Source: an uncultured Bacteroidales bacterium
GTDB lineage: Bacteria > Bacteroidota > Bacteroidia > Bacteroidales > P3
Direction of reading: 5' to 3'
DNA length: 57,734 nt
NCBI GenBank assembly: GCA_900318835.1
Contig: ONLW01000015.1
Coordinates: 1-57,734 of the forward strand
Shown here piece after piece: positions 19,038-54,821 of the stretch. Position 1 is the stretch's first letter. Each line of letters starts with the position of its first letter. The position numbers and the translations under genes are program-made. Below the pieces are notes generated by a model. The model did not search any database, was not told where the DNA came from, and saw only the letters and a list, made by a program, of their open reading frames with translations.

Positions 19038-19113
19038 CTTACCATCTCCTTACCAACTCCTTACCAACTCCTACCACAGTAGGTGTTGATAGAGTGTCGG
19101 CAGGATGTTGGTA
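19038..19113. repeat. GGTAGG-family intergenic element, copy 1
   Basis: The left side holds tandem 11-bp units (CTTACCATCTC, CTTACCAACTC, CTTACCAACTC) followed by CTACCA; the right side holds degenerate inverted units (TAGGTGTTGATAG, GGCAGGATGTTGG). The centre (CCACAGTAGG) departs from the CCATGG of other copies. It lies between the divergent PKD and M16 genes. Confidence 0.8.
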
Positions 19114-19193
19114 TTTAACATCTGTTAACAAAACCATTCCCCATGGCAAAAAAATAAAAAACACTCTCCACTATCTTAATTCAGAAAAAATTG

Positions 19194-19201
19194 TATATTT
19201 G
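19194..19201 (+). promoter_or_regulatory. -7 element (TATATTTG) for the M16 peptidase gene
   Basis: TATATTTG matches TAnnTTTG and is 56 bp before the ATG. A clear -33 TTTG box is not visible. The leader that follows is AT-rich. Confidence 0.55.
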
Positions 19202-19257
19202 CATCTTAACTAAGGATATGATAATTAATATAAAATATTCAAAAACAATAAGAAAAA

Positions 19258-22188
19258 ATGAAAAAGGCTACCGTAATGTTGTGTTTTGTGGCAGCGATGC
19301 TCTTCGTGGGTGTCAGCGCACAAAAGTATGAGTACAAGACCTATGACAACGACCCCCTGAATGTCCGCGAGTATACCCTGAAGAACGGTCTCAAGGTGTT
19401 CATGAGTGTCTACCGCGACGCGCCCCGCATCCAGACCTACATTGCCGTGCGGGCAGGCTCAAAAAACGACCCCAGCGAAACCACCGGCCTCGCCCACTAT
19501 CTGGAGCACATGCTCTTCAAGGGCAGCCACCAGCTCGGCACCACCGACTGGGAGCGCGAGAAAGTGGAGCTTGCCAAAATCGAGGCCCTCTATGAGGTCT
19601 ACCGCAAGACCACCGACGACCATCGCCGCACCGAAATCTACCACCAGATCGACTCCATCAGCTACCTCGCTTCCACCATCGCCATCGCCAACGAGTACGA
19701 CAAGAGCATGAGCGCCATCGGTAGCGAGGGCACCAACGCCTTCACATCCAACGACTACACCATGTATGTGGAGAACATCCCCAGCAACCAGCTCGAAGCC
19801 TGGGCCAAGGTGGAAGGCGACCGCTTCCCCAACCTGGTGCTGCGCCTCTTCCACACCGAGCTTGAAGCCGTCTACGAGGAGAAGAACATCGGAATGGCAC
19901 AGGACAACCGCCGCGTCAACGAGACCATGATGGCCGCCCTCTTCCCCCACCACCCCTACGGCCAGCAGACCACCATCGGCACCATCGAGCACCTCAAGAA
20001 CCCCTCGATGAAGAACATCCGCGAATACCACGCCGCCTACTATGTGCCCAACAACATGTGCATTGCCATGGCCGGTGACTTCAACCCCGACGAGGCCATC
20101 AAGATTATCGACAAATACTTCGGCAGCTGGGTACCCGGCACCGTGCCCGGATTCACCAAGGTGAAAGAAGAGCCCATCACCAGCCCCATCATCCGCCTCG
20201 TCAACGGTCAGGACCCCGAGAGCCTCACCATAGCCTTCCGCATCGAAGAGGGCAACGGCAGCCGCGACGCCTTTCTGGCCCGGGCTATGAAGATGGTGCT
20301 CTACAACGGCAGATGCGGTCTCATCGACCTCAACCTCAACCAAAAGCAGCTCTGCCTGGGCGCCTATGCCGGCCCCTACACCTTAAATGACTACGCTGCC
20401 CTCATGCTCGTCGGACGTCCCACCCAGGGCCAGACCCTCGGCCAGCTGCGCGACCTGCTGCTCGAGCAGGTTGACCTGGTGAAGCAGGGTAAGTTCGACG
20501 AGAGCCTTATCGAGGCCAGCATCAACCAGCTGAAGCTCGAAATCATGGAGGATGCCGAGAGCAACGACAGCCGCGCACGCCAGATGGCCTACGCCTTCGT
20601 GCAACACCAGTCGTGGGACAAGGTGTGCAACGAAGTCAACGAGCTCGCCAAGATCACCAAGCAGGACATAGTCGACTTCGCCAACCGCATCTGCAAGGAC
20701 AACAACTACGTCATCGTCTACAAGCACCAGGACACCCCCGACCCAGTGGCCAAGGTTGTCAAGCCCGCCATCACGCCCATCAGTGTGAGCCGCGACAATG
20801 AGAGCCCCTTCCTGGCCCAGGTGAAGGCCGACGCCGCCAAAGCCAAGCCCATCCAGCCCGTCTTCGTCAACTTCGCCAAAGACCTCCAGAAAGGCAAGAC
20901 TGCCAACGGCAGCGATGTGCTCTACGTGAAGAACATGGAGAACGGCACCTTCAACCTGCAGTATCGCTTCGAGTTCGGCAGCCGAGCCGACAAGACCATC
21001 GCAATGGCCGCCAACCTGATGGAATACCTGAACACCAACAAGCACACCGCCGAACAGCTTCAGGAAGAATTCTACAAAATGGCCTGCAGCTACAATGTCC
21101 GTGTGGGCGATGAAAGCATTACCGTGGGCGTGAGCGGCCTGGCCGAAAACATGGAGAAAGCCATGCAGCTGCTCGAAGAAGTGATGTCCTCCTGCCAGCC
21201 CAACGACGAGGCCCTCAACACCCTCGTCGACCGCCTCATCAAGAGCCGCACCGACAACAAGACCAACCAGCGCGCTGCCTTCCGCGCCCTCAACACATAC
21301 GGCATCTACGGTGAGGATTATGTGAAAGAAGTCACCGAGAGCGACGCCCAGCTGCGCACCTACACCGCCCAGCAGCTCACCGACGCCCTCCATAACCTCT
21401 TCCAGTACAAACACCGCGTGCTCTACTACGGCCCGCTGAGCCTCAAGGAGGTCACCGACGCCGTCAACCGCATCCACACTCAAGCAATCAAGCAATCAGG
21501 CATTCAAGCATTACAAGATGTCCCTGCCAACAAAGTATATCAACCCCTGGCCACCGACGAAAACCAAGTGCTCTTCGTCAACTACGACGCCAAAAACACC
21601 TACGTCACCGAATACTTCCGCGGTGAGCATATCAACACCCCGCTGATGCCCAAGGTGAACCTCTTCAACGAGTACTTCGGCGGCTCGATGAACGCCATCG
21701 TCTTCCAAGAGATGCGCGAGAAACGCAGCCTCGCTTACAGCGCCAGCAGCTACTACACCAACACCGGACGCAAAGACGGCTACTTCTACAATAGCGCTAA
21801 CATCATCACCCAGAACGACAAGCTCATGGACGCCCTCGACGCCTACGAGGAACTCTTCAACGACATGCCGCAGGCCGAAGCCAACTTCAAGCTGGCCAAG
21901 GACGCCCTGCTGGCCGGCAGCCGCACCGCCCGCACCACCAAGATGGGCATCATCAACGCCTACCTCCAGTGTGAGCGTATGGGATGGAAGGAACCCCTGC
22001 GCAAGCAGAACTTCCAAGCCTACCAAAAGCTGACGATGAACGACCTGACAAACTTCCAGCAGCAGTACATCAAAGGCCAGAAAAAGACCTACCTCATCCT
22101 CGGCAAAGAGAGTGAAATGGACTTCAACGCTCTCGCCAAGTTCGGCAAAGTGAAAAAACTGACGCTGGATGAGATCTTCGGCTATTAA
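19258..22188 (+). CDS. M16 family zinc metallopeptidase (two-domain, exported)
   Basis: This 976-residue insulinase-family protease has a signal peptide (MKKATVMLCFVAAMLFVGVSA). The inverted zinc motif HYLEH is at residues 80-84 (His80, Glu83, His84), and the downstream acidic ligand lies in ELEAVYEEKN near 201-210. The C-terminal half repeats the fold without a zinc motif and has the M16 signature RSLAYSASSYY. It probably degrades peptides in the periplasm or at the surface. Codon use is strongly biased to C-ending codons, which suggests high expression. An 8-bp tandem array (21481-21512) encodes the linker QAIKQSGIQALQ between two M16 domains. The last 20 bp overlap the next gene. Confidence 0.93.
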   Translation: MKKATVMLCFVAAMLFVGVSAQKYEYKTYDNDPLNVREYTLKNGLKVFMSVYRDAPRIQTYIAVRAGSKNDPSETTGLAHYLEHMLFKGSHQLGTTDWEREKVELAKIEALYEVYRKTTDDHRRTEIYHQIDSISYLASTIAIANEYDKSMSAIGSEGTNAFTSNDYTMYVENIPSNQLEAWAKVEGDRFPNLVLRLFHTELEAVYEEKNIGMAQDNRRVNETMMAALFPHHPYGQQTTIGTIEHLKNPSMKNIREYHAAYYVPNNMCIAMAGDFNPDEAIKIIDKYFGSWVPGTVPGFTKVKEEPITSPIIRLVNGQDPESLTIAFRIEEGNGSRDAFLARAMKMVLYNGRCGLIDLNLNQKQLCLGAYAGPYTLNDYAALMLVGRPTQGQTLGQLRDLLLEQVDLVKQGKFDESLIEASINQLKLEIMEDAESNDSRARQMAYAFVQHQSWDKVCNEVNELAKITKQDIVDFANRICKDNNYVIVYKHQDTPDPVAKVVKPAITPISVSRDNESPFLAQVKADAAKAKPIQPVFVNFAKDLQKGKTANGSDVLYVKNMENGTFNLQYRFEFGSRADKTIAMAANLMEYLNTNKHTAEQLQEEFYKMACSYNVRVGDESITVGVSGLAENMEKAMQLLEEVMSSCQPNDEALNTLVDRLIKSRTDNKTNQRAAFRALNTYGIYGEDYVKEVTESDAQLRTYTAQQLTDALHNLFQYKHRVLYYGPLSLKEVTDAVNRIHTQAIKQSGIQALQDVPANKVYQPLATDENQVLFVNYDAKNTYVTEYFRGEHINTPLMPKVNLFNEYFGGSMNAIVFQEMREKRSLAYSASSYYTNTGRKDGYFYNSANIITQNDKLMDALDAYEELFNDMPQAEANFKLAKDALLAGSRTARTTKMGIINAYLQCERMGWKEPLRKQNFQAYQKLTMNDLTNFQQQYIKGQKKTYLILGKESEMDFNALAKFGKVKKLTLDEIFGY
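21481..21512. repeat. 8-bp tandem array inside the M16 gene
   Basis: Units CAAGCAAT, CAAGCAAT, CAGGCATT, CAAGCATT. Because three units equal 24 bp, the array reads in frame as eight codons per cycle. It stands out against the GC-rich, C-ending codon use around it. Confidence 0.75.
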
Positions 22189-23635
22189 AATAGTCCTTTT
22201 CCTCACCGCAATCCTGCTTGTCGGCTGCAAAGGCAAGCAGGATTGCGTCTGTCTTGTCTGCGACGAAACCCCGGCCCTCGCCGCTTCAGGATACGTCTCC
22301 CTAGAGAACGGCCACTTCAGCATTGACGGGGAAACGTGGTTCCCCATGATGCTCAACTACAAAGCTTTCATCAAAGACGGTCGCGTGGTGCCCGCCCCTT
22401 GGTACACCGGCGGCGACATCCGCGAGCACTTCGACACCATCGCCTCGTGGGGATTCAACACCGTGCGCGTATGTCTCGACGTGATGGAACCCGGTGGCGA
22501 TACCGCAGCCATGTACCGCGCCACACGCCGTATGGTACAGCAGGCTGACAGCGCCGGACTCCATGTCATGCTCCTCATCAAGGCACCTATCGACGACTAT
22601 TGGGAACACTACACCATAGGCCTGATGCACCGTCTAGCCGACCAGCCAGCACTCTGGGCCTACGACCTGATGAACGAACCCCTCTATTTCGACACCGTTC
22701 AGAACCGCGAGAAGTGCGACGCCTACAACCTCGTATGCCACTGGCGCCAACTGGTACGCACCCACGCACCCCACCAGCTCTTCACCGTGGCCACAGCCGA
22801 ACCCATCGAGGTTTTCGAGTGGGACCCCGCCATGCTGCCCGTCGACTTTTTGGAGATGCACACCTATCACCCGCTGCGTGCGCAAGCCGAGATGTGGTGG
22901 TACAGCCACTATACCGGCCGCCCCTGGATGGTGGGCGAGACCGGTCTCCCAGCCGACGGTGATTCGGTGCCCTACACGGCGCAAGTAGGATTCATGTGCG
23001 AGACCTACAGCTATGCCAAGTCCCACGGCGCCATAGGCTACGGCTGGTGGGAGTTCCAGGACTATCCCGATGGTGTCAATTTCGAGGCGCAATACACGGG
23101 CCTGCGCGACCATAACGGACAGCGCAAACCAGCCGCCGACTTGCCCAACATCTTCAAATACCTGTGCCTCGGCCATGAAACCAGCGAAGAACTGTTGCCA
23201 CCCGCAAACTACTACAATATGCTAGCCTACAACAACGTGGCAGTAACCGGACGCGTGGTCGACAGCAGCGGACACCCCATCGAGGGCGCCGTCATACGCG
23301 GATGGAACGCCGACTGGAGCGTAGGCATGAACACCTTCAGCGACAGCTCAGGACACTTCCGGCTGGTGAGCAACGACACCTGCAGTCACTTCGAAGTTAG
23401 TGCACCACACTACAGCAAAGTCAAACTCGACAGCATCCTTCCCTATCCTACCGGCATCCCCCTTCCTGACCGCCACCGCGAATACCAGCAGATACCTCTC
23501 CTCGGATGGGGAGCAAGCATTCCCACCCCAAACGGAGGCAAACAAAACATGCTCCTTCCCGGCAACGCAAAACTATTCGAGGCTTCCAGCGCCGTGGAAG
23601 TCCCAATAGGAGACATCATTTTGAAGAAAATTTAG
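22169..23635 (+). CDS. GH5-like (cellulase-type TIM barrel) lipoprotein
   Basis: The 488-residue lipoprotein begins at an ATG inside the end of the M16 gene (20-bp overlap), giving a lipobox LLVGC (Cys20). The GH-A barrel has YDLMNEP with the acid/base Glu170 and MVGETGLP with the nucleophile Glu257, and FNTVRVCLDV in an early strand. The C-terminal part from about residue 350 (VTGRVVDSSGHPIEGAVIRG) is a carboxypeptidase-regulatory-like beta-sandwich. The substrate cannot be told; beta-mannan or beta-glucan hydrolysis is typical. Coupled to M16. Convergent with the next gene, sharing 4 bp. Confidence 0.8.
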   Translation: MRSSAIKIVLFLTAILLVGCKGKQDCVCLVCDETPALAASGYVSLENGHFSIDGETWFPMMLNYKAFIKDGRVVPAPWYTGGDIREHFDTIASWGFNTVRVCLDVMEPGGDTAAMYRATRRMVQQADSAGLHVMLLIKAPIDDYWEHYTIGLMHRLADQPALWAYDLMNEPLYFDTVQNREKCDAYNLVCHWRQLVRTHAPHQLFTVATAEPIEVFEWDPAMLPVDFLEMHTYHPLRAQAEMWWYSHYTGRPWMVGETGLPADGDSVPYTAQVGFMCETYSYAKSHGAIGYGWWEFQDYPDGVNFEAQYTGLRDHNGQRKPAADLPNIFKYLCLGHETSEELLPPANYYNMLAYNNVAVTGRVVDSSGHPIEGAVIRGWNADWSVGMNTFSDSSGHFRLVSNDTCSHFEVSAPHYSKVKLDSILPYPTGIPLPDRHREYQQIPLLGWGASIPTPNGGKQNMLLPGNAKLFEASSAVEVPIGDIILKKI

Positions 23636-28675: not shown

Positions 28676-28761
28676 GTCGAAAGCATTGTTTTTTTGACAT
28701 ATAACGCGCCAAATCCGGTTTTATTGTATTCCATTGACTCACCCCATCTGCGTACCGACAA

Positions 28762-28850
28762 CCTACCCCCACCCTATCATCACCTACCAAGGTAAGGGAT
28801 GGGTAGGGGTTGGGTAGGAGTTGATAAAGAGTTGGGTAAGACTTGACAGG
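28762..28850. repeat. GGTAGG-family intergenic element, copy 2
   Basis: A left arm (CCTACCCCCACC, CACCTACC) meets a centre CCAAGG; the right side holds 10-11 bp units AGGTAAGGGAT, GGGTAGGGGTT, GGGTAGGAGTT, GATAAAGAGTT, GGGTAAGACTT, ending GACAGGTACAT. The same end sequence (GGGTAAGACTTGA...GGTACAT) appears in inverted orientation at copy 4. Between divergent DUF389 and ferredoxin genes. Confidence 0.85.
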
Positions 28851-28980
28851 TACATAGTACTAATTATCAACAAGTTGAAAAGTAGTAAAAAACGGGCAAA
28901 ATTGCACTTACGCGGAAAGTTCCCCCACACACATATTCCACATTATCAATCAGCAAGTTACAAGGTAATTGAAAATATTT

Positions 28981-31914: not shown

Positions 31915-32838
31915 TTATTCCCAGTAATCTATCTCACGGTCAAAATAGGGTATCTTGCTGCCTCTGATGCGGCTGCGCAACAGGAGGCCATGGCTGTCGT
32001 ATTCGTGTATTTCGATTGATTCCCCCTCCTGCTCGTATACACGCCACACCTGGCGTTCCTCTATCCTGCGACCGTCAGGCTGGCAACGTATGGTGATGTC
32101 GGCCTCCATGTCGAGGTTGTATTCCTTGCCTGTCATGTGGGTGAGCGCACCGTTGGTGTCGTAGTGATAGGAGAGTGAATCCCAGCTTTCATAGTAATAC
32201 CCTACACGGTAGTCCACACGCCCATCAGAACGGTAGTGGTAGTTGATGTCTTCGCGGGTATCACCATAGTTTGTATACTGACGCAGCAAGCGTCCCTTGT
32301 CGTCATACTCGCGACGATAATAGAATGTGTCACAATAGAAAAGCTCGCCATCGTCAATAAAGCAACCACAGAAAGTATAATCCAGTAGGCCATAAACAGG
32401 ATGTGTCTTGTGGGCGATTAATTCATAGTCTGCACGATTAGTGTCGTGACCAGGATTATGATAATACCCATACCATTCATTTTTCACACGCAGTACCACC
32501 CCGTCGGCAGAATAGTAGATGTCCCATATCTCAGCGGTGTCAATCCAGCCCATAGGGTTGGTGGCAGAAAATCTTTCTCGAAGACCCACACATCGTGTGA
32601 GCTGTCCCTGGTCGTTGTAGGTAAGTTTGGTGAGTGGGTGTGTCTGGTAGCCATGACGGTCATAGTTCTCTGTGTAATTTAATGCCCGCTCCAGCGTCAC
32701 GGTATCATACTTATAATATCGGATGGCCTTGATGTGGTTGGTGTCGCGTGTAGGCATCCACGGCAGATCCACTGACGGTCCTTGCGCCATGGCAGAAAGA
32801 CCGCTGAGAATCATAAAAATAAAAGAGAACTTCTTCAT
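31915..32838 (-). CDS. Exported YD-repeat-like protein
   Basis: A 307-residue protein with a signal peptide (MKKFSFIFMILSGLSAMA; start ATG at 32838, chosen over one 9 codons upstream) and no lipobox. The mature protein carries several Tyr-Asp motifs of the RHS/YD type: YNDQGQLTRC, YSADGVVLRV, YDDKGRLLRQ, YRSDGRVDY, YDTNGALTHM, CQPDGRRIEE, YDSHGLLLRS. Such repeats form beta-hairpins. No catalytic motif is seen. It resembles the small protein at 10780-11199 in repeat type but is longer. Transcribed divergently from glmS. Confidence 0.7.
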   Translation of the reverse strand: MKKFSFIFMILSGLSAMAQGPSVDLPWMPTRDTNHIKAIRYYKYDTVTLERALNYTENYDRHGYQTHPLTKLTYNDQGQLTRCVGLRERFSATNPMGWIDTAEIWDIYYSADGVVLRVKNEWYGYYHNPGHDTNRADYELIAHKTHPVYGLLDYTFCGCFIDDGELFYCDTFYYRREYDDKGRLLRQYTNYGDTREDINYHYRSDGRVDYRVGYYYESWDSLSYHYDTNGALTHMTGKEYNLDMEADITIRCQPDGRRIEERQVWRVYEQEGESIEIHEYDSHGLLLRSRIRGSKIPYFDREIDYWE

Positions 32839-32862
32839 CCTATTCTGTTTTTTTTCAAGGTG

Positions 32863-32894
32863 CAAAAATACATATTTTTTTGTCAGTTTCCAAA
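32863..32894 (-). promoter_or_regulatory. Promoter of the exported YD-repeat-like gene
   Basis: On the minus strand TTTG (32891-32894), a 20-bp spacer and TATTTTTG (32863-32870) match the consensus, about 25 bp before the ATG at 32838. It overlaps the glmS promoter on the other strand. Confidence 0.7.
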
Positions 32895-32909
32895 ATATTC
32901 GTATTTTTG
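32879..32909 (+). promoter_or_regulatory. Promoter of glmS
   Basis: TTTG (32879-32882), a 19-bp spacer and TATTTTTG (32902-32909) match the Bacteroidales promoter exactly, 31 bp before the ATG. No glmS ribozyme core is recognisable in the short leader. Confidence 0.85.
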
Positions 32910-32940
32910 CAAATTAATTTAATCTCAAAACAGAAAAGAT

Positions 32941-34800
32941 ATGTGCGGAATAGTAGGATACATTGGTGAGCAAGAAGCTTACCCCATCCTGATAAAGGGT
33001 CTTCATCGACTGGAATATCGCGGCTACGACTCGGCCGGAGTAAGTATGATCAACGCCAAGGGCGAACTTAACATCTACAAGGCCACTGGAAAAGTGGCGG
33101 CATTGGAAGACAAATGCGCCAGCGAGGACGTTACCGGCAGCATCGGCATCGCCCACACCCGCTGGGCTACCCATGGTGAGCCCAACACGGTCAACGCCCA
33201 CCCCCACCTCTCACAGAGCAAGAACCTCTCGCTGGTGCACAACGGCATCATCGAGAACTACAAGGTGCTGCGCGCCAAGCTGGAGAAGGAGGGCTACGAT
33301 TTCTGTAGCGACACCGACACCGAGGTGCTGGTGCAGCTCATCGAGTACACGCAGAAGCAGCATAAGTGCGACCTTTTCACCGCCGTGCAGCGCGCCCTGA
33401 AGAACGTCGTAGGCGCCTACGCCATCGCCATCCTGCAAAAGGACCACCCCGACCAGTTGGTCTGTGCCCGCAAGGGCTCGCCGCTGGTCATCGGCGTGGG
33501 GACCGACGCCCGCGGCAAGAAGGAATTCTACCTCGGTAGCGACGCCACGCCCATCGTAGAATACACCAAGCAGGTGGTCTACCTCAAGGACGAGGAGATT
33601 GCCTACATGGACCGCAGCGGCAAGCTCGACATCGCCAATCTGGCCAACGTACACCAGACACCCGAGATGCACACCCTCAGCCTGAGCCTCGACGAGCTGG
33701 AGAAGGGCGGCTTCCCGCACTTCATGCTCAAGGAGATCTGGGAGCAGCCCAACGCCCTGCGCACCTGCATCAAGGGTCGCCTGCACCCCAAACGCAAGGA
33801 CATCACGCTGAGCGGCATCATCGAGCACCGCGACAAGTTCGTCAACGCCCGCCGCATCATCATCTGCGCCTGCGGCACCAGCTGGCACTCGGCCCTCATC
33901 GCCAAATACTTCATCGAAGAAGCGGCGCAGATTCCCGTAGAGGTGGAATATGCAAGCGAGTTCCGCTACCGCAATCCTGTCATCTACTCCGACGACGTGG
34001 TCATCGCTGTATCACAGAGCGGCGAGACGGCCGACACGCTGGCCGCCATCCAGTTGGCCGAGCAGAAGGGCGCCTTCCTCTACGGCATCTGCAACGTCAT
34101 CGGCTCCAGCATCGCCCGCGCCACCCATAGCGGCACATACTTGCACGTGGGTCCCGAAATCGGTGTGGCCTCCACCAAGGCTTTCACCGGACAGGTCATC
34201 ACCCTCTGCCTGCTAGGTCTAGCCATCGCCAAGGAGAAGCACACGCTGAGCGACGATATGTTCCACATGCTGGTCGACGAACTGTACATGATTCCCGACA
34301 AAATGCAGTGGACACTGGAGCACAACAAGGGCATCGACCAGTTCGCCCAGATGTTCACCTACTGCCGCAATTTCATCTTCCTCGGCCGCGGCTATAACTT
34401 CCCCGTGGCCCTCGAGGGCGCGCTGAAACTGAAGGAAATTTCCTACCTCCACGCCGAAGGTTACCCCGCCGCCGAGATGAAGCACGGTCCCATCGCATTG
34501 GTCGATGAGGAGATGCCGGTGGTTTTCATCGCGCCGAAACGCGGTATGTACGACAAGATTGTCAGCAACATACAGGAAATCAAGAGCCGCAAGGGCAAGA
34601 TCATCAGCGTTGTGACGGAAGGCGACACGACGGTGAGCAAGATGAGCGACTATGTCTTCACCATCCCCGACACGCGTGACTGCTTCGTACCCATGCTGGC
34701 GGTCATCCCACTACAGTTGCTGGCCTACTACATTGCCACGGCGAAGGGCCGCAACGTGGACCAGCCGAGGAACCTCGCCAAGAGCGTAACGGTTGAATAA
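32941..34800 (+). CDS. glmS: Glutamine--fructose-6-phosphate aminotransferase
   Basis: GlmS makes glucosamine-6-phosphate from fructose-6-phosphate and glutamine, the first step to UDP-GlcNAc. The 619-residue protein opens MCGIVGYIG, with the nucleophile Cys2 after Met removal, then the amidotransferase domain (GIAHTRWATHG). Two SIS domains follow (ICACGTSWHSAL, VIAVSQSGETADTLA, IFLGRGYNFPVALEGALKLKE). Full length. Single-gene unit with promoter and terminator. Confidence 0.97.
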   Translation: MCGIVGYIGEQEAYPILIKGLHRLEYRGYDSAGVSMINAKGELNIYKATGKVAALEDKCASEDVTGSIGIAHTRWATHGEPNTVNAHPHLSQSKNLSLVHNGIIENYKVLRAKLEKEGYDFCSDTDTEVLVQLIEYTQKQHKCDLFTAVQRALKNVVGAYAIAILQKDHPDQLVCARKGSPLVIGVGTDARGKKEFYLGSDATPIVEYTKQVVYLKDEEIAYMDRSGKLDIANLANVHQTPEMHTLSLSLDELEKGGFPHFMLKEIWEQPNALRTCIKGRLHPKRKDITLSGIIEHRDKFVNARRIIICACGTSWHSALIAKYFIEEAAQIPVEVEYASEFRYRNPVIYSDDVVIAVSQSGETADTLAAIQLAEQKGAFLYGICNVIGSSIARATHSGTYLHVGPEIGVASTKAFTGQVITLCLLGLAIAKEKHTLSDDMFHMLVDELYMIPDKMQWTLEHNKGIDQFAQMFTYCRNFIFLGRGYNFPVALEGALKLKEISYLHAEGYPAAEMKHGPIALVDEEMPVVFIAPKRGMYDKIVSNIQEIKSRKGKIISVVTEGDTTVSKMSDYVFTIPDTRDCFVPMLAVIPLQLLAYYIATAKGRNVDQPRNLAKSVTVE

Positions 34801-38187: not shown

Positions 38188-38270
38188 CCTATTAACCACC
38201 TACCAACACCCTACCAACTCCTACCATGGTAGGAGTTGGTAGGGTGTTGGTAGGATCTTCGTAGGGAGGT
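38188..38270. repeat. GGTAGG-family intergenic element, copy 3 (perfect palindrome)
   Basis: 38199-38254 is a perfect 56-bp palindrome: the left arm is CCTACCAACACC, CTACCAACTC, CTACCA and the right arm is its exact reverse complement (centre CCATGG). Degenerate units extend it on both sides. Confidence 0.95.
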
Positions 38271-40242: not shown

Positions 40243-40575
40243 ACAAATAAATGAATAAAATTATGTAGAAAGACAGAAATAGTTAAAGCAATTATATTGA
40301 GCAAACCGCCCATTGTTCTCGTCGTAGGAATCTGGACAATTCCAATGTGTATGAGAATAAGCTCCGCGGGGGTTCACGCTTGGGCGTGAATTATTCGCAC
40401 CTTATTAAAATCACAGGCTGGTCAGAGCCTTAACAGCAAATAAGGAGCAACAAAAGAATAATTCCACGTCCTTTTTCTTTTGCTCTTATTTCAAGAATAT
40501 CGATGGCTTCGCTCGCAATGATAAATGGGGATGCCGAAAACCATATTTAGAGTAGGCTGAATAAAAAAAACAATT
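40243..40575. other. 333-bp AT-rich leader with fragments of a dispersed repeat
   Basis: No protein gene is seen. A small hairpin TTCACGC TTGG GCGTGAA lies near 40374-40392 (approximate). At 40506-40522 the sequence GCTTCGCTCGCAATGAT (minus strand ATTGCGAGCGAAGC) matches the core of a repeat seen in many bacterial genomes and metagenomes. The stretch probably represents decayed mobile or repeat DNA in front of the HEPN gene. Confidence 0.4.
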
Positions 40576-42550: not shown

Positions 42551-42587
42551 TTTTGCCATATAAGAAAATAGTTGTATCTTTGCACTG
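42551..42587 (+). promoter_or_regulatory. Promoter of rubredoxin/ferritin, copy B of the 37-bp repeat
   Basis: TTTG (42552-42555), 19 bp, TATCTTTG (42575-42582), i.e. an exact consensus, 35 bp before the rubredoxin ATG. It matches copy A at 33 of 37 positions. Confidence 0.9.
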
Positions 42588-43871: not shown

Positions 43872-43885
43872 CTCAAAAAAATATT

Positions 43886-43916
43886 TTTACCATATCATAT
43901 TTTATTCGTATCTTTG
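43886..43916 (+). promoter_or_regulatory. Promoter of rubrerythrin-lpxK
   Basis: TTTA (43886-43889), 19 bp, TATCTTTG (43909-43916), 46 bp before the ATG. The segment TTTTTACCATAT is related to TTTTTGCCATAT in the two 37-bp repeat copies, which suggests a shared regulator. Confidence 0.75.
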
Positions 43917-43961
43917 CCCCGATTTTAAACCAATTATTAATCCTAAAAACAAAGCAACATT

Positions 43962-48012: not shown

Positions 48013-48090
48013 ATTTTTTTTCAAAGCTGAAAACCACCCCTTTTCACCACCAACGCAACATCCTATAAACCAATTACATGTACCCATCAA

Positions 48091-48171
48091 GTCTTACCCA
48101 ACTCTTTACCATCTCCTACCCATCTCCTACCTATCCCTTGCCATGGTAGGAGATGGTAAGGGACAGGTAGG
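48091..48171. repeat. GGTAGG-family intergenic element, copy 4
   Basis: Left side units (CTTACCCAACT, CTTTACCATCT, CCTACCCATCT, CCTACCTATCC) meet CCATGG; the right arm is TAGGAGATGG, TAAGGGACAGGTAGG. The right arm has one extra 10-bp unit relative to the inner left arm. The outer left end shares its sequence with copy 2, inverted. Confidence 0.88.
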
Positions 48172-48231: not shown

Positions 48232-51200
48232 ATGCGCTTAAAACGCCATATCCTATTGCTACTGTGCCTTTTGTCTGGCACCATAGCCTTTGCCCAGAAG
48301 GCGAAAACACCACCACTGAGCATCCAAGAGGTGGGCAATGGGGAGTTAGAGGTACATTTCCATTTCTCCGGGGTAGGGCTGATGGTTGTCGGCTGGGACT
48401 ATCACGAAATCACAAGCGACTGCCTGTTTTTGGGCAATGGTCCTGTGGGAAACCCCAACCTTCCGACAATCAGCACCTTGATACGCCTTCCCGAAGGCAG
48501 CACCCTAATGGTGAACGATGTAAAGGGCGAGGCGGTGACCACCAAGGGCTTTTTTGTTTTCGGCGACGAGAACTGCCTTGTGGCACCCATCACCGAGGGA
48601 TGGTTCAAAGACCGAGGGTGGCCCGGCTACGAGCCTAATTACAAAGTTTATAACACTGACGACTGGTATCGCGGAGGTGACATGCTGGAGGTTGAGCATG
48701 TGGGTCGCATGGGGAACGAGGAGGTCTATCGCCTGACAGTGAGGCCTGTAGAATACAATCCTGTGAGAGGAGACCTGCGGGAATGGCCCACAATCAGAGC
48801 CACTCTAAAAGTAGGGAACGTTTCTCCGCTCCCCTCAAAGGAGGACAGATTGCTTATTGTCTCGCGACCGGAGTTTGAGGCTGGTTTGCAGCCGTTTGTG
48901 CAGTGGAAACGACAAGAAGGCTACGACGTGGAGGAACTCTACGTCAACACCCATAAGCGCGACAGCATCAAGGAAATGATGCGGCCTTTCTTTGCGAACA
49001 ACAATCCGGTGCATCCTGCGCCAAATTACATCTTATTGGTGGGCGATGCCGCTCAGATACAGGCTTTTATCGGAAACACTTCGCTCCAAAGTGAGGAACA
49101 TATCACCGACCTCTACTATGCCGACTTTTCGGGCGACTACCTGCCCGAGTCCATGTTGGGCCGCTGGCCGGTGAACGACACCACCGAACTGCGCGCCGTG
49201 GTGGAGAAAACGCTTCGTTATGAGCAGTTTGACGGCATCGACACCCTCCAACTGAGACGCATGCTACTGGTGGCAGGAAAAGAGACTGCCACCCCTGCGC
49301 CCTTGACCACTAACGGACAGGTAAACTACCTGAAGCAGGAAATAAAATCATCTCACCCAGAGATAGATACACTCTGCTATTACAATCCACAGTCGGGCGA
49401 GCAGCTCGACTCCGTTGTAGCTGACCTTGGTCTCGGTGTAGGCCTGCTGAACTACACGGCCCACTGCACCGAAGCGGGTTGGAACTCGCCGGCGCTGACC
49501 ATCGGACGTGTGGAAGAAGCCCACGAAACCCAGCCCATGGTCTACGTGAACAACTGTTGCAGAAGCAATTCCTTCGCCGGAACATGCTTCGGAGAACAAC
49601 TGCTGCGACTGCCAGTGGGGGGCGGTGTGGGAGTAATTGGTGCCACTACATCAACCCTTTGGTACGAAGATTATTTCTGGGCCATAGGTCCGAAATACCC
49701 CATCAGTCTCACCGCAGCCTATGACAGCACGGCCAGTGGCGCCTTCGACGCCTTGATTGGTCGCCAGCCCTCCATCACCACCATGGGTGAGTTACTCGCA
49801 GCAGGGAATCTGGCAGTTACAGCATCGGGGTCCTACTATGACAAGTTCTACTGGGAGGTCTACTGCCTCTTCGGTGATCCCACATTGAGACCTTGGGTCG
49901 GTGTTCCCCAAGAGATTGACTTTCACCTTACCAACAATTTTTACAACGGGCAGAACCAAGTGTATGTGGACGGCACTATCGGCGCCACCATCTCCCTCAT
50001 GCAAGGCAATGAGGTACTGGGGCACTCCGTCATCGGGCCTTCAGGCACCGCTACCATCAATCTCAGCCGCACACTCGACACTCTACCAGTAATCCTCACA
50101 GCCTCAGGTGCAAACCTGCGTCCACGCATAGACACTTTCACCGTGGAGACCATGGAACACGGCGTGACTTTGCGCAACGTGGTAGTGACCGACAGTACGG
50201 TGCATTGCATGGTAGAGAATATTGGCAATCTGCGTTACGACAGCCTCCGAGTGGTACTTAGTCAGACTATTGACCAGTCCAACGGCGCACTGATAGCAGA
50301 ACAGCTTTTGGTCATCGACTCGCTGTTGCCGCATTGCCAGAGTGAGGCGACACTGCCGGTGACGGTACTGGAAATCGGTCAGTGGCCATTATGGCAAGCC
50401 ACACTCTCCATCCGGAGCGACAGCATGGAGTGCAGACTTGACCTCGCCCATGCTCTTCCCTCCTCCAATCCCACCCTCAGCCTAAAGCTACTCAACGCCG
50501 ACGGCAGCGAACCTCGACGCATACTTCCAGGACACAGTTACCAACTGACAGCCACCACCACCGGCCATTACGATTCCTTGTGGCTCGAAGTACAAGACCT
50601 GCCCATTGGCAGCAGCCTGGCCTCGGCCGACACCATATTCGACTTCACCACATCCGACAGTCTTAGCGCACTAGCCATTGGCAGCACCCTGCAGTTGGGC
50701 CATTGGACTGACCACCAACTCTATTGGCTCGAGCCCTGCCAGCGCATCGAGAGTTTCGAGCACGGCTTCGACAGTCACCCTTGGCGAAACAGCAACCGTA
50801 TAGCCTGGGTGATAGACAGCGCCGTAAGCCACTCTGGACGTTTCAGCGCCCGTTCGGGAGCCATCGGCGATGGCTTGTCAACACAATTGTGCCTCGAAGT
50901 GGAGATGCTGATGCGCGACACCATAAGCTACTGGGTCAAAACCTCGACCGAGGGCGGTGGCGACAAGATGGTCTTCTCCGTCGACGGCTATGGTTTTATT
51001 CCCGAAGCCTGGGGCGACATGGATTGGGACCACCGTATTCATGTTCTGAACGCCGGTCACCACACCATCTGCTGGCGCTACACCAAGGATGCTTCTGGTA
51101 GCCGCGGTAGCGACTGCGTGTGGATCGACGACCTGCAGATTCCTCTGGCCCTGTGGGATACAGCTTATGTATGGGACTGTCTTGTACCGACAGTGGGGAT

Positions 51201-51456
51201 TGAGCCTCCACAAATGACAGTATTGCCGATGACGATTTTTCCCAATCCCGCCACGGACCAGGTGTGGATTGCCGGGCCACATGACACCGAGGTCCGTATC
51301 TCCGATGCCCTCGGACGCACACTCGCCACCTTCACACTGACCAGGGAAGAAGCATACCGCTGGGACGCCACAGCGCTGCCGACAGGCATCTACTTCGCCA
51401 CCAGCATCATTGACGGACAACATCATACACAGAAAATTATTCTCTTAAACCACTAG
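48232..51456 (+). CDS. Gingipain-type C25 cysteine protease with T9SS sorting domain
   Basis: The 1074-residue secreted protease has a signal peptide (MRLKRHILLLLCLLSGTIAFA), a propeptide, and the C25 catalytic domain: His411 in NYTAHCTEAGW and Cys443 in YVNNCCRSNSFAG, matching YTGHG and GNCC of RgpB in spacing (32 versus 33 residues). TSTLWYEDYFWAIG is typical of gingipains, more than of the sortase PorU. After that come Ig-like regions and a C-terminal domain (IFPNPATDQVWI...SDALGRTLATF...LPTGIYFATSI...KIILLNH). The GH-G of gingipains is replaced by AH-C here. First gene of a five-gene operon containing rnpA. Confidence 0.88.
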   Translation: MRLKRHILLLLCLLSGTIAFAQKAKTPPLSIQEVGNGELEVHFHFSGVGLMVVGWDYHEITSDCLFLGNGPVGNPNLPTISTLIRLPEGSTLMVNDVKGEAVTTKGFFVFGDENCLVAPITEGWFKDRGWPGYEPNYKVYNTDDWYRGGDMLEVEHVGRMGNEEVYRLTVRPVEYNPVRGDLREWPTIRATLKVGNVSPLPSKEDRLLIVSRPEFEAGLQPFVQWKRQEGYDVEELYVNTHKRDSIKEMMRPFFANNNPVHPAPNYILLVGDAAQIQAFIGNTSLQSEEHITDLYYADFSGDYLPESMLGRWPVNDTTELRAVVEKTLRYEQFDGIDTLQLRRMLLVAGKETATPAPLTTNGQVNYLKQEIKSSHPEIDTLCYYNPQSGEQLDSVVADLGLGVGLLNYTAHCTEAGWNSPALTIGRVEEAHETQPMVYVNNCCRSNSFAGTCFGEQLLRLPVGGGVGVIGATTSTLWYEDYFWAIGPKYPISLTAAYDSTASGAFDALIGRQPSITTMGELLAAGNLAVTASGSYYDKFYWEVYCLFGDPTLRPWVGVPQEIDFHLTNNFYNGQNQVYVDGTIGATISLMQGNEVLGHSVIGPSGTATINLSRTLDTLPVILTASGANLRPRIDTFTVETMEHGVTLRNVVVTDSTVHCMVENIGNLRYDSLRVVLSQTIDQSNGALIAEQLLVIDSLLPHCQSEATLPVTVLEIGQWPLWQATLSIRSDSMECRLDLAHALPSSNPTLSLKLLNADGSEPRRILPGHSYQLTATTTGHYDSLWLEVQDLPIGSSLASADTIFDFTTSDSLSALAIGSTLQLGHWTDHQLYWLEPCQRIESFEHGFDSHPWRNSNRIAWVIDSAVSHSGRFSARSGAIGDGLSTQLCLEVEMLMRDTISYWVKTSTEGGGDKMVFSVDGYGFIPEAWGDMDWDHRIHVLNAGHHTICWRYTKDASGSRGSDCVWIDDLQIPLALWDTAYVWDCLVPTVGIEPPQMTVLPMTIFPNPATDQVWIAGPHDTEVRISDALGRTLATFTLTREEAYRWDATALPTGIYFATSIIDGQHHTQKIILLNH

Positions 51457-51460
51457 CACC

Positions 51461-52309
51461 ATGCCGGAAAACCTCAATGACACCTTAAACCTGACAGCAC
51501 TGCCTTTCTGGCAATGGAACCTCCAGGAGAATCCATTGACGGAGGTCGACACGGGTATTCCGTTCGACTCCATCCATCGTCCACGCGAGGTGAAGGACAC
51601 CGTGTTCCGCAAGTCAATGTTCCAACGCCACTCACTGCAGGTACAGCACAGCCATGTTGTGGTGCGCCCCGAAAACCACGAGCCCGCCTGGATTTTCGTC
51701 TCCTTGCTGCTGCTCACGGGACTGATATGTCTCTATTTCCATCTACGGAAAATCAAGCTTTTTACGCTACTTAGAGCACTCATCGACCGTCGTGCGATGG
51801 ATCGCCTAGCGCGTGACTGCAACCTGAATCGCACCACTCTCATGCTACCCATGGGCCTGCTGCTGGTAGCAGCAATAAGCCTACCTATACACCGCATGGC
51901 GCTGCCACAGACAAGCCTCTGGGGATACCTGCTGCTTGCTGCCGGTTTGGGGCTGCTTTACATTCTCCGCAACGCCATCCTGCGACTGCTGGGAAACACC
52001 TTCGAGAACCGCCAAGCAGTGGTGCTCTACATCACCAACAACTATCTCTTCCATATGCTGGAAGCATTGGTAGTCACGGTGATACTCTTCCCCTTCTTCT
52101 ACCTGCCGGGGGCACAAACAACACTGTTTTCCTTCATCGTGGGATTCGTTGCAATTGCCTTCACGGTACGCTTCGTACGAGGGGTAAAAATATTTTTAAC
52201 ACTTCCAAATAGCTCCAGTTTCTATCTTTTTTACTATCTTTGCATTGTCGAAATAATACCAATTTTGGCACTCACAAAATGGATTATATACAATAATTCA
52301 GCAAATTAA
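51461..52309 (+). CDS. DUF4271 membrane protein
   Basis: The 282-residue protein has an N-terminal soluble part (about 70 residues) and roughly six membrane segments (IFVSLLLLTGLICLYFHLR, LMLPMGLLLVAAISL, GYLLLAAGLGLLYIL, LEALVVTVILFPFFYL, IVGFVAIAFTVRF, YLCIVEIIPILALTKW). It matches DUF4271, a Bacteroidota family of unknown function that is commonly next to the HemD-like gene, as it is here (19 bp). Confidence 0.88.
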   Translation: MPENLNDTLNLTALPFWQWNLQENPLTEVDTGIPFDSIHRPREVKDTVFRKSMFQRHSLQVQHSHVVVRPENHEPAWIFVSLLLLTGLICLYFHLRKIKLFTLLRALIDRRAMDRLARDCNLNRTTLMLPMGLLLVAAISLPIHRMALPQTSLWGYLLLAAGLGLLYILRNAILRLLGNTFENRQAVVLYITNNYLFHMLEALVVTVILFPFFYLPGAQTTLFSFIVGFVAIAFTVRFVRGVKIFLTLPNSSSFYLFYYLCIVEIIPILALTKWIIYNNSAN

Positions 52310-52328
52310 GAAGAATACCAGTTAGAGA

Positions 52329-53441
52329 ATGAAGATAAAAAAAATACTCATTTCGCAGCCGGCACCCGCCGATTTAGAGAAATCGCCCTATAGAAATCTC
52401 ATCAACAAGCACAATGTAGACATCACCTTCTTCAAATTTTTTGAAGTCGTCGGCATCCCCGTCTCCGAATTCCGCAAAACACGTATCCACATTAGCGAAT
52501 ACAGCGCCATCATCTTCAACAGCAAGAATTCGATTGACCATTTCTTCCGCATGCTTAAAGAGTTGCGTGAAACTGTCAGCGAAGAGATGAAGTATTTCTG
52601 CTCCACCGAGGCCATCGCACTCTACCTGCAGAACTACATCCAGTACCGCAAGCGCAAGGTATTCTTTGGCAACCAATATTTCTCCGACCTACTGGAGGTG
52701 ATGAGCAAACACCGCGACGAGAAGTTCCTCTTTCCGTGCAGCGACGAAAAACAGACCGAATACACCAAGGCTCTCGACAAGGCCAAGTTCAAATACACCA
52801 AAGCGCCAATGTACACCTCAGCCCCCAAAGACCTCACCAAGTTCAAGCTTGAGGAGTATGACGCCATCGCACTTTTCTCCCCCATCGGAGTGCGCAGTTT
52901 GGTGAAAAGTTTCCCCGACATCAAGAACCGCAACATCACCATCGCCGCCTTCGGCACCTCGACGCATGCCGCCCTCAAGGAGCAAGGCATCAAGCTCACC
53001 ATCGCCGCTCCCACCCAGTCGGCCCCCTCGATGGCCATGGCCATTGAGAACTACATCATGGGCAAAGAACCCGACACCGTCATCGCCTCGAAGGGTGAGT
53101 TGGTGAAACACAGCGTGAAAAACACCATCGGCACAACGGTGAAAAAGGTCAAGCCCGTCATCGCCAACAAGGAGATTTACAAGCAACGCATGGAGGAGAA
53201 GAAAGCCCAAGCCGCTGCACGTCGTGCCGCCCGCGCCGCCGAGCGCGCCAAAGCCGAGGAAGCCAAAGCCAAGGCAGAGAAAGCGAAAGAGGAGAAAGCG
53301 AAAGTCGAGAAGGCCAAGGTCGCCACAACCAAAGTCGTGAAAGCCACCCCTACCAAGCCCAAAGTGGCCGCCACAGCCAAACCCAAGACTGCCGCTGCCA
53401 AGCCCAAGACTGCCACCAAGAAGGCAAGTGCCAAGAAGTAA
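52329..53441 (+). CDS. HemD-like (uroporphyrinogen-III synthase fold) protein with basic tail
   Basis: A 370-residue protein. Residues 1-250 resemble uroporphyrinogen-III synthase (ILISQPAPADLEKSPYRNL, YSAIIFNSKNSIDHFF, EEYDAIALFSPIGVRSLVKSFP, AFGTSTHAALKEQG). The last 95 residues are a low-complexity Lys/Ala/Pro/Thr tail. No other haem gene is in the window, and the genomic context is always rnpA/yidD in Bacteroidota, so a role other than tetrapyrrole synthesis is plausible. The enzyme assignment itself is only by fold. Confidence 0.8.
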   Translation: MKIKKILISQPAPADLEKSPYRNLINKHNVDITFFKFFEVVGIPVSEFRKTRIHISEYSAIIFNSKNSIDHFFRMLKELRETVSEEMKYFCSTEAIALYLQNYIQYRKRKVFFGNQYFSDLLEVMSKHRDEKFLFPCSDEKQTEYTKALDKAKFKYTKAPMYTSAPKDLTKFKLEEYDAIALFSPIGVRSLVKSFPDIKNRNITIAAFGTSTHAALKEQGIKLTIAAPTQSAPSMAMAIENYIMGKEPDTVIASKGELVKHSVKNTIGTTVKKVKPVIANKEIYKQRMEEKKAQAAARRAARAAERAKAEEAKAKAEKAKEEKAKVEKAKVATTKVVKATPTKPKVAATAKPKTAAAKPKTATKKASAKK

Positions 53442-53443
53442 CG

Positions 53444-53827
53444 ATGGCCTTCACATTCAAGAAAGAAGAACGATTGTGCAGCCGTCAGCTGATTGACCAG
53501 CTCTACGAAGAGGGGCACCGGTTGAGGGCTTTCCCTTATAGCGTCCAGTGGCTTATAGTCCCAGACCTTTCACCTTGTCAGGTGATGATTGTGGCTCCAA
53601 AAAGGAAATTCCGCCATGCCGTAGACCGCAACCGTGTGCGACGCCTGACACGTGAATGCTACCGTCTGCGCAAGCACACACTCTATCAATTCCTCAAGGA
53701 ACACGGCATCGGCATCGTCTTCTCGATGGTCTATATCCACAACGAAATCATGTCCTACGAACAGTTGAGCCACAAGATGGACAAACTGCTGGCAGCGTTG
53801 GAGAAAGACATAACCGCCACGCTATGA
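53444..53827 (+). CDS. rnpA: Ribonuclease P protein component
   Basis: The protein subunit that assists the RNase P RNA in tRNA 5'-end maturation. The 127-residue protein has the RNR motif region [23 protein letters not shown] and the N-terminal [11 protein letters not shown]. It starts 2 bp after the HemD-like stop and overlaps yidD by 4 bp (ATGA). Confidence 0.95.
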
Positions 53828-54048
53828 AATTCAAGCCTCTTTCGTGGCTGATGCTGGCCTTGATAGCATTCTACCGCACCTGCATCTCGCCACTCACGCC
53901 ACCTGCCTGCCGCTACACGCCCACCTGCTCCCAATACGCACAAGAGGCCATACGCAAGTACGGCCCCTTCAAAGGTGGATGGCTGGCACTGAAGCGCATC
54001 CTCCGTTGCAACCCATGGGGCGGCTCGGGATACGATCCAGTACCCTAA
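53824..54048 (+). CDS. yidD: Membrane protein insertion efficiency factor YidD
   Basis: The 74-residue protein starts at the ATG at 53824, overlapping rnpA. It has one amphipathic helix ([18 protein letters not shown]) and the signature [41 protein letters not shown]. It assists YidC; the neighbourhood rnpA-yidD is universal. Converges with ribE; 3 bp separate the stops. Confidence 0.96.
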
Positions 54049-54051
54049 TCC

Positions 54052-54663
54052 TTATTTCTGTGCAGCCATATACTGCTCCAGCAGGCGCTGGACATATTTT
54101 CCAAAGACGTCGAACTCGATGTTGACCACCGTGCCGGGACGGAAACCGTGGAAGTTGGTCACCTTATAAGTATAAGGTATGATAGCCACACTGAACATGC
54201 CGGGATCGGAATCCACCACTGTCAGGCTCACTCCATTGATGCTGATGGAACCCTTGGGCACCGTGATGGAGGGTGCGTTCTTGGCATCGTACTCGAAGTA
54301 GAAGCGCCACGAACCGTTGTCGTCCACCACCTTGGTACAAGTAGCAGTCTGGTCGACATGTCCTTGAACAATGTGGCCGTCGAAACGGCCATCCATACGC
54401 ATTGAGCGCTCCACATTGACTTCTGTACCCACCTGCCAGGTGCCAAGGTTGGTCTTGAGCATCGTCTCATCCATGGCGGTGACAACATATTGTTTCTTAA
54501 CCTTGTCGACCTTGACCACCGTCAGGCAGCAGCCGTCGTGGGCCATGCTCTGGTCAATGGCCAACTCGTCGCCAAAAGGCACTTCGAGGGTGAAGTGGTA
54601 GTTGGTATTCTCTTTCTCTATCTTGACGACCTTGGCCGTCGTCTCAATGATTCCTGTAAACAT
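54052..54663 (-). CDS. ribE: Riboflavin synthase, alpha subunit
   Basis: Riboflavin synthase dismutates two 6,7-dimethyl-8-ribityllumazine to riboflavin. The 203-residue protein starts at the ATG at 54663 (MFTGIIETTAK) and contains two lumazine-binding repeats: MFTGIIE...SMAHDGCCLTVV and VQGHVDQTAT...GSISINGVSLTVV. A 19-residue upstream extension is not family-like. Upstream lies GGTAGG element copy 5. Confidence 0.95.
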   Translation of the reverse strand: MFTGIIETTAKVVKIEKENTNYHFTLEVPFGDELAIDQSMAHDGCCLTVVKVDKVKKQYVVTAMDETMLKTNLGTWQVGTEVNVERSMRMDGRFDGHIVQGHVDQTATCTKVVDDNGSWRFYFEYDAKNAPSITVPKGSISINGVSLTVVDSDPGMFSVAIIPYTYKVTNFHGFRPGTVVNIEFDVFGKYVQRLLEQYMAAQK

Positions 54664-54744
54664 AATCAATAGTCTTTTTTCTAGTAACGTCCGACGGGCT
54701 AAAATATTGTTACATGACACAAATAGTTTTCACCCTGCGAAAAA

Positions 54745-54821
54745 CCTACCATCACCCACCATGGTAGGTAATGGGTAGGGGTTGAGTAGGAGATGGGTAA
54801 GAGTTGAGAAAGAGTTGACAG
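54745..54821. repeat. GGTAGG-family intergenic element, copy 5
   Basis: Left arm CCTACCATCACCCA, centre CCATGG, right units GGTAGGTAAT, GGGTAGGGGTT, GAGTAGGAGAT, GGGTAAGAGTT, GAGAAAGAGTT, ending GACAG. The 11-bp unit layout matches copy 2. It lies between codirectional ribE and the DPP IV gene, upstream of ribE. Confidence 0.85.

Follow-up and report, generated by a model that had tools for sequence, protein, structure and literature searches.

Evenly spaced arrays of 11-bp repeats suggest a chromosomal lattice in a group of Bacteroidales

Introduction

What are the arrays of 11-bp repeats that recur between genes in the uncultured, rumen-type Bacteroidales bacterium of assembly GCA_900318835.1, and what determines where they lie? 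Five of them occur in the stretch of 57,734 nt of contig ONLW01000015.1 analyzed here (the window). The initial annotation took them for a dispersed, undescribed family, a view that agrees with our survey of the open-access literature: among the matches listed, no title describes such a lattice, and the string GGTAGGAGTTG retrieved only papers with unrelated titles. Bacterial chromosomes are thought to be split into topological domains of ~10 kb, and we know of no general sequence-encoded borders of these domains. BIMEs have been put forward as domain-border candidates (PMC6907758).

Results

Five related elements in the window

All five copies were found at the positions given in the initial annotation (Table 1). 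Allowing up to three mismatches, GGTAGGAGWTGGTAGG matched the window 12 times, 11 of them within the five copies, compared with a mean of 0.49 and a maximum of 2 in 100 shuffles. Elements 2 and 4, described at the outset as sharing an outer end in opposite orientation, gave an inverted match over 109 nt with 80% identity. Automatic assignment misplaced the symmetry axes of elements 4 and 5, and their CCATGG centers were read directly from the sequence. An exact IHF-like site adjoins only element 2 among the five elements checked. The copies had been said to occupy every long divergent region of the window; four are indeed divergent, but another region called as divergent (32757–32940, 183 bp) carries no copy. 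Searching the window against Rfam 15 yielded nothing above the gathering score on the elements, the only match being DUF805b at 40524–40558.

Table 1. Positions of the repeat arrays and of the adjoining IHF-like site in the window
Feature	Position	Strand	Description
Element 1	19038..19117	.	Inverted 11-bp array, axis ~19076/19077, divergent intergenic region
Element 2	28749..28861	.	Inverted 11-bp array, divergent intergenic region
IHF-like site TATCAACAAGTTG	28865..28877	+	Outward of element 2
Element 3	38188..38270	.	Perfect palindrome about axis 38226/38227, 28 bp per side, divergent intergenic region
Element 4	48087..48171	.	Inverted array around CCATGG 48141–48146, divergent intergenic region
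Element 5	54745..54824	.	Inverted array around CCATGG 54759–54764, flanked by two minus-strand genes

Architecture and gene context in the source genome

The dispersed element family is confirmed as real across the 2.34-Mb source genome (G000), where GGTAGGAGWTG occurs 236 times versus 21 for the reversed pattern. Measured outward from the axis of symmetry, T peaks fall at 11, 22, 33, 44 and 55, a period of 11 bp that corrects the unit length of 10–11 bp proposed initially. Over 73 half-sites, two-fold symmetry and 11-bp phasing extend to ~60 bp on each side, and both conservation and phase are maximal at the element center, conservation decaying outward. These data support the earlier suggestion that the units recur in register with the helix, an arrangement required of a tandem protein-binding array or nucleoid element.

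The G000 set comprised 37 elements: 36 were profile matches, and C18 119535 was added from regular-expression clusters. Positions were entered manually from these lists for the analysis of gene context and spacing, with thresholds chosen by the analyst. Genes were called with a home-made hexamer caller, and intergenic limits are therefore approximate. The elements are mostly intergenic and, contrary to the idea that they are confined to divergent regions, 33 of them divide into 15 divergent, 14 co-directional and 4 convergent locations. The overall interpretation in the initial annotation is partly supported; it missed the main point, which is the lattice described below.

Over-dispersed arrays in six species

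Over 445 kb of G000, no gap out of 32 is shorter than 4.5 kb and 22 fall at 7.5–12.6 kb, whereas none of 5000 random intergenic placements matched either the minimum gap or this band (P 0.017–0.034 for the coefficient of variation, CV). When different units were pooled, the combined lattice had a CV of 0.36 (0 of 10000 null placements). Extrapolation from the 37 elements in 445 kb gives an estimate of ~200 sites per genome.

Placement nulls were run for six species (G000, G009, G016, G028, G012 and G022), leaving out G001, G002, G004, G015, G021 and G035. The five species other than G000 also carry over-dispersed 11-bp arrays, mostly with unrelated units. Against random intergenic placement, P values for the minimum gap and the CV were 0.0006 and 0.0008 in G009, 0.0001 and 0.0001 in G028, and 0.0014 and 0.0015 in G022, while on contig C1 of G016 they were 0 of 5000 and 0.003. 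Over-dispersion was weakest in G012 (minimum gap, P 0.011), and the CV fell short of significance there (0.18) and on the small G016 contig C2 (0.46). Mean gaps were ~8–13 kb in the species tested. Spacing between arrays of different units was likewise non-random (G028, P 0.019; G000, P 0.003); such arrays appear to share one lattice, other units filling the gaps of the main family.

Layout persists while units change

In sister species, arrays are similarly laid out and spaced but spelled with quite different letters. Units elsewhere include CGAAGAACAAT in G028 and the GGAAGAAGAG array of G001, and they lack a GTAG/CGTC tag. One main unit predominates in several genomes, and several unrelated units coexist within G012, G022 and G028. 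Arrays are two-fold symmetric in G000 and G009, and direct rather than inverted in G016 and G004. Lag 11 was not the top period in G002 (8 and 16 higher), G035 (7 and 14 higher) or G028 (22, its double, higher), and 11-bp arrays were absent from four other families. G035 has few elements; of 7 G000 arrays whose intergenic regions were matched there, 6 are missing. Conservation of position across species was not significant in any of eight pairs (P 0.14–1); for G000 and G001, both carried an array at 3 matched regions, one alone at 2 and 2, and neither at 9 (P 0.14; other pairs 0.23–1).

G016 has 8–9 sites inside genes; at ≥12 bits, 9 in-ORF sites were counted compared with 0.1 in 20 codon shuffles. 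Random placement of copies within genes had been named initially as evidence against the family, but the seven copies that fall within ORFs on the larger contig of G016 still conform to the spacing (P 0.00075). Compared with homologues, three of the four readable in-ORF copies show no insertion, and the fourth is shorter than two of the three homologues it was compared with. Where readable, these alignments show in-gene sites written in place.

An IHF-like motif faces outward from some arrays

In some species, a motif resembling the IHF consensus of E. coli faces outward in helical register with the array (Rayleigh R 0.84, P 4e-7 at 11 bp; 10.5 bp nearly equal, R 0.83). With this E. coli consensus, the outward excess was significant in G000, G009 and G016, and in G001 with mismatches allowed; G004 flanks showed no outward excess. 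Exact matches occurred in 14/73 flanks of G000, 7/69 of G016, 0/18 of G001 and 0/12 of G004. A pooled motif search took in 40 of 72 G000 flanks, and searches on single genomes gave different top motifs for G001, G004 and G000. The motif matrix showed no excess in G035 (19 vs 20) and a weak one in other families. Exact WATCARNNNNTTR exceeded its reversed control in every one of the 12 genomes for which counts were made, among them members of other families, so that only the flank comparison counts. HU/IHF-family genes were present in 7/7 genomes.

Discussion

The persistence of layout and spacing in sister species despite different repeat letters suggests that ~100-bp arrays of 11-bp repeats, each one DNA turn long, placed every ~10 kb, form a lattice that folds or anchors the chromosome. 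On balance, we favor architectural sites wrapped by a protein complex, which together would form a chromosome-wide lattice setting borders or controlling supercoiling of ~10-kb domains. Each element would be a putative binding site in which ~100–130 bp of DNA are held or wrapped by a complex touching one helix face once per turn, and in some copies an IHF/HU-type factor may bend the DNA at the array edge. Lattice sites would then act as architectural anchors, most likely marking the borders of topological domains of roughly 10 kb or serving as points at which their supercoiling is controlled. The phase and symmetry of the half-sites, the spacing within and between units, the in-ORF sites of G016, the phased IHF-like sites and the presence of HU/IHF-family genes speak for this reading. 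Weighing against it are the lack of significant positional conservation between species, the scarcity of elements in G035, the non-significant CV values, the many flanks that have no IHF-like site and the near-identical copies in G028.

Several known systems resemble the arrays in part. The parC iterons of plasmid R1 form two arrays of 11-bp repeats bound by ParR on one DNA face, but parC is one plasmid centromere, whereas the arrays occupy many chromosomal sites. RIB/BIME-1 elements join a repeat to an IHF-type site within the element; here the IHF-like site lies outside, in register, and accompanies a subset of copies. The E. coli gyrase motif spans −63 to +66, with flanks periodic at 10.75 bp in GC content (PMC6379681), and the 11-bp phase of G000, reaching ~60 bp per side, agrees with this footprint. 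Strong gyrase sites are, like the arrays, ~130 bp long and roughly symmetric, with a flank period near the helical turn; the motif is described as degenerate, with a 36-bp center between periodic flanks (PMC6379681, PMC12393610). The arrays, in contrast, are literal repeats, phased most strongly at and through the center and evenly spaced along the chromosome. Among known models, DNA gyrase comes nearest in size and period, but a clade-specific protein would fit at least as well. BIMEs, described as candidate topological barriers and gyrase targets in E. coli, share with the arrays the form of dispersed intergenic palindromic repeats, whereas REPs are presented in the same sources as short stem-loops, tied to RAYT or without a known transposase (PMC6907758, PMC3733652). 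The arrays consist of 11-bp tandem units, have no GTAG/CGTC end tag in other species and are RAYT-free in two rich genomes. In our best reading, the sites may act like strong gyrase sites or BIMEs while belonging to neither family.

Mobility offers a different account of the spacing. A MITE-like element inserting between genes would yield evenly spaced copies because it avoids the neighborhood of existing ones (target immunity), with successive families sweeping the species. The main G028 array is present in near-identical copies, which need a copying process; arrays are present or absent at matched intergenic regions, these being much shorter where absent; and copies are mostly intergenic. 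Even so, this is unlikely given the alignments of the readable G016 in-ORF copies, which do not look like insertions, and given that conservation peaks at the center and fades outward; moreover, spacing is kept between arrays of different units, an outcome not expected of sequence-specific immunity. Mobilization of a REP/BIME family by RAYT transposases is highly improbable. Dispersed intergenic palindromes and two Y1_Tnp matches in G000 would suit it, and PF01797 is found in G000 and in 28/37 genomes. A RAYT-like partner, sought on the suggestion of the initial annotation, is nevertheless not needed: the element-rich G009 (231 unit matches, 95% complete) and G016 (100% complete) have no PF01797 match, on which ground a RAYT-driven REP family was rejected.

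Other readings look to what the sites bind or encode. Species-specific operators of a dedicated protein, a global regulator or nucleoid protein of fast-changing specificity with architecture secondary, would explain the single main unit of several genomes and the direct repeats in helical phase; we regard this as improbable, since unrelated units coexist in G012, G022 and G028, apparently on one lattice. DNA uptake sequences, which would spread through biased uptake (molecular drive) and become evenly spaced incidentally, are reported to be species-specific words, evenly spaced and also found in genes, a spacing that Karlin et al. took to point to a function in replication, repair or compaction (PMC1939737). 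Units here also differ among species, some sites lie in ORFs, and ComEC occurs in 10/12 genomes. Uptake sequences are, however, short single words (PMC1939737), whereas the arrays are ~100 bp long and helically phased. The type II/IV secretion ATPase PF00437, which would cover the type IV pilus ATPase, was above cut-off in 0/12 genomes, with weak sub-threshold matches in 4, making competence-pilus uptake sequences unlikely and the whole reading very unlikely. A role as transcribed hairpins (terminators or RNA elements), left open initially, fares unevenly across the five window copies: element 3 folds strongly (z −9.35) and the two arms of one element are alike, but element 5 reaches just −0.72, 15/33 elements lie between divergent genes, and arrays in G016 and G004 are direct. 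We consider it scarcely credible.

Returning to architectural sites, we tentatively extend the proposal, with more doubt than confidence: the genus may divide its chromosome by a ~10-kb lattice of nucleosome- or gyrase-like wrapping sites, read by 11-bp helical phasing and not by a fixed word. If phasing rather than the word is read, units could be replaced between species or mixed, and written into coding sequence, while the lattice persists. The arrays also pose an evolutionary puzzle, in that an estimated ~200 sites per genome swap words between sister species, and a visible ~10-kb lattice whose code is helical and whose units can be exchanged would open the question of domain borders to direct test.

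Anatomy and gene context of the elements

All five dispersed copies that the initial annotation had described in the window were present at their positions (Table). A 16-mer made from the unit, with up to three mismatches allowed, matched the window 12 times, 11 of them within the five copies (0.49 expected from shuffles), and copies 2 and 4 shared 80% identity over 109 nt, inverted relative to each other. Across the whole genome that contains the window (G000; 2.34 Mb, 43 contigs), GGTAGGAGWTG had 109 + 127 matches versus 11 + 10 for the pattern read backwards.

From a 445-kb sample of G000 (C12 1-60000, the whole of C15, C16 and C18 1-120000, plus the window), we took 37 elements, 36 through a half-site profile and one through a regular expression. 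Their 73 half-sites showed T peaks 11, 22, 33, 44 and 55 bp outward of the symmetry axis and TA near 4/5, 14/15, 25/26 and 36/37, with a signal that weakened with distance and was gone near 60 bp on each side. For the first 22 bp in G000, and for 33 bp in G009, another Bacteroidales genome, the two arms of an element were more alike than arms taken from separate elements (permutation P 0.0005 or less); no such likeness was found beyond these limits.

Thirty-three of the 37 elements lay in called intergenic regions, one in a called ORF, and three without two called flanks. Elements occupied 15/37 divergent, 14/220 co-directional and 4/30 convergent regions, so divergent regions are preferred but not required.

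Table. Coordinates of elements, in-gene sites and other repeats
Feature	Source	Position	Remarks
Element 1	window	19038-19117	RNA fold z -2.88
Element 2	window	28749-28861	RNA fold z -2.15
Element 3	window	38188-38270	RNA fold z -9.35
Element 4	window	48087-48171	RNA fold z -3.59
Element 5	window	54745-54824	RNA fold z -0.72
Rfam RF02914 (DUF805b RNA) match	window (+)	40524-40558	37.6 bits; gathering score 35.6
35-nt promoter-like repeat, TTTTGCCATA...TATCTTTGCAC	window	40206-40240	copies lie ahead of several adjacent genes
Same, second copy	window	42551-42585	91% identical to first
Same, third copy	window	43885-43919	66% identical to first
In-ORF sites	G016	46455, 80627, 100973	gapless alignment with homologues
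In-ORF site	G016	85437	4 residues shorter than 2/3 homologues
In-ORF site	G016	67548	poor alignment with homologues
GGTAG-type copies	G028	72.2, 89.2, 137.7 kb	
10-bp-period arrays (CCTAGG + four bases)	G002 C4	~54635-54714, ~120809-120864	near genes
10-bp-period array (CCTAGG + four bases)	G004 C7	~82923-82958	near genes
Long related intergenic repeats	G021 C53	e.g. 33915-34593, 71464-73627, 109084-109986	~500 bp; CCGATTTGGGTTAAA-like ends

Even spacing along the chromosome

The 32 gaps between G000 elements had a minimum of 4546 bp, and 22 of them fell within 7.5-12.6 kb. When elements were placed at random in the 107 intergenic regions that were eligible, with three weightings and 5000 runs, 8.0-8.5 gaps fell below 4.5 kb and 7.3-7.7 in the 7.5-12.6 kb band; no run matched the observed minimum or band count (0/5000). 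A few long gaps weakened the result for gap variation (CV) taken alone, with P at 0.017-0.034. Even spacing recurred in G009 (17 elements over 251 kb; P 0.0006 for the minimum, 0.0008 for CV) and, for its own family, in G016 (C1: 28 elements in 217 kb, 0/5000 and P 0.003; C2: 7 elements in 60 kb, P 0.002 and 0.46). Arrays of 11-bp period detected blind to the unit were likewise spaced in G028 (n = 17, mean gap 9.8 kb, CV 0.30, P 0.0001 for both measures), G022 (n = 9, 9.8 kb, P 0.0014 and 0.0015) and G012 (n = 12, 9.0 kb, P 0.011 for the minimum and 0.18 for CV). Conservation of element positions between species did not reach significance.

Different units on an apparently shared lattice

The GGTAGGAGWTG-type unit was expanded in four of 36 other genomes of the genus (G009, 231 matches; G035, 62; G002, 52; G007, 40) and near background in the remaining 32 and in 24 genomes from other families. 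Scanning a species-genome collection with the palindromic core returned 71 stretches, all titled Bacteroidales or Bacteroidetes MAG, several of them, going by the title, from roe-deer rumen or goat reticulum. Segments with an 11-bp lag in non-coding DNA, whatever the unit, numbered 51 in G000, 14 in G001, 10 in G004, 8 in G002, 7 in G016, 4 in G035, 3 in G021, 28 in G028, 19 in G022, 17 in G012 and 5 in G015, counted in unequal samples of 40 to 445 kb per genome; four other families, sampled at 100 kb each, had none. Elements were few in G035, and lags other than 11 bp were stronger there and in G002; tandem repeats with 7- and 8-bp lags were also common in G002, G000 and G035. Long intergenic repeats stand in place of many 11-bp arrays in G021 (Table).

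The units themselves differed: GGTAGGAGTTG in G000, GGAAGAAGAG arrays in G001, GGTTAAGGTCG in G016, CTGGTAGGTAT in G004, CGAAGAACAAT in G028, CGTAATACTAC, AAAGAACAGT and CAAGTCGAACT in G012, and CTACGGACCCC and GAAGAACTACT in G022. At the locus of window element 3, G035 carries the G000-type unit and G002 an inverted AACGTTAAACT array flanked by the matching two genes. The three GGTAG-type copies in G028 fall into gaps left by the CGAAGAACAAT family (P 0.019). Six G000 arrays with other or degenerate units lay at a median of 11.4 kb from the main elements, and intergenic regions free of elements at 4.4 kb (P 0.003); with the six arrays included, the lattice had 38 gaps (mean 10.2 kb, CV 0.36, minimum 4.1 kb), and none of 10000 random placements was equally even.

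An outer IHF-like motif

De novo searches found TGAtAATCAgcCAgTT in ~36/50 flanks of G016 arrays and tTGAtAATCAGgCAgTTA in ~58/154 pooled flanks; the latter contains WATCARNNNNTTR, the E. coli IHF consensus. Top motifs from G001, G004 and G000 flanks searched singly differed from the pooled one. Exact outward matches exceeded controls in G000 (14/73 flanks vs 5/264, P 8e-7; 1 inward), G009 (10/33 vs 6/144, P 5e-5; 3 inward) and G016 (7/69 vs 5/212, P 0.011; 3 inward), and were absent from 18 flanks in G001 and 12 in G004. The profile window in G001 overlay the IHF-like site; re-searching from 24 bp past the array start found it in 7/9 elements with at most one mismatch and in 2/9 with two (0/20000 control draws). 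Twenty-one exact sites in G000 and G009 begin 32, 44, 54, 65, 68, 74, 76, 78 or 85 bp off the axis, clustering at steps of one helical turn (R 0.84, P 4e-7). Many array flanks lack the motif. The HU/IHF family PF00216 was matched in 7/7 genomes. On G001 C3, an outer-motif matrix gave 40 matches, 15 intergenic and 25 in ORFs, versus 7 in the reversed control.

Origin and possible role

A profile whose training set was restricted to intergenic G016 copies found nine sites inside ORFs at ≥12 bits and eight at ≥15, where 20 codon shuffles averaged 0.1 and 0; the full profile at 12 bits matched nothing in reversed G016 and once in 1.73 Mb of other genomes. By the same comparison, there was no in-ORF excess in G000 (1 site) or G009 (0 sites). 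Of ten G016 in-ORF sites compared with the genome set, five had homologues there (Table) and the other five had none. Seven in-ORF sites on C1 lay at least 3.1 kb from any other element (P 0.00075). Given the gapless alignments and the kept spacing, at least some G016 sites formed in place with spacing respected. The G028 copies are almost identical, so some copying process is needed there.

RAYT-type transposases, whose co-occurrence the initial annotation had raised, were absent from G009 and G016, and we rejected a REP family moved by a RAYT as the identity of the elements. RNA hairpins were likewise rejected as a general identity, as the window copies fold unevenly (z -9.35 to -0.72) and are not all hairpins. 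DNA uptake sequences are an unlikely identity, as PF00437 ATPases stayed below the cut-off in 12/12 genomes, while ComEC was found in 10/12.

The phase, symmetry and length of the elements are like those of a DNA-wrapping complex. For the gyrase motif of E. coli, a span of -63 to +66 with flanks periodic at 10.75 bp has been described (PMC6379681; also PMC12393610), and BIMEs have been proposed as topological barriers (PMC6907758). The sites reported here differ from both as described there: their spacing is even, their units can be exchanged, and they can also be encoded within genes. Results that weigh against an architectural role are the lack of significant conservation of positions between species, the few elements in G035, the different, long repeats of G021, the many flanks without the IHF-like motif and the near-identity of the G028 copies. 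The best reading is that they are architectural sites of a ~10-kb domain lattice, in which gyrase or another protein would act as the wrapper.
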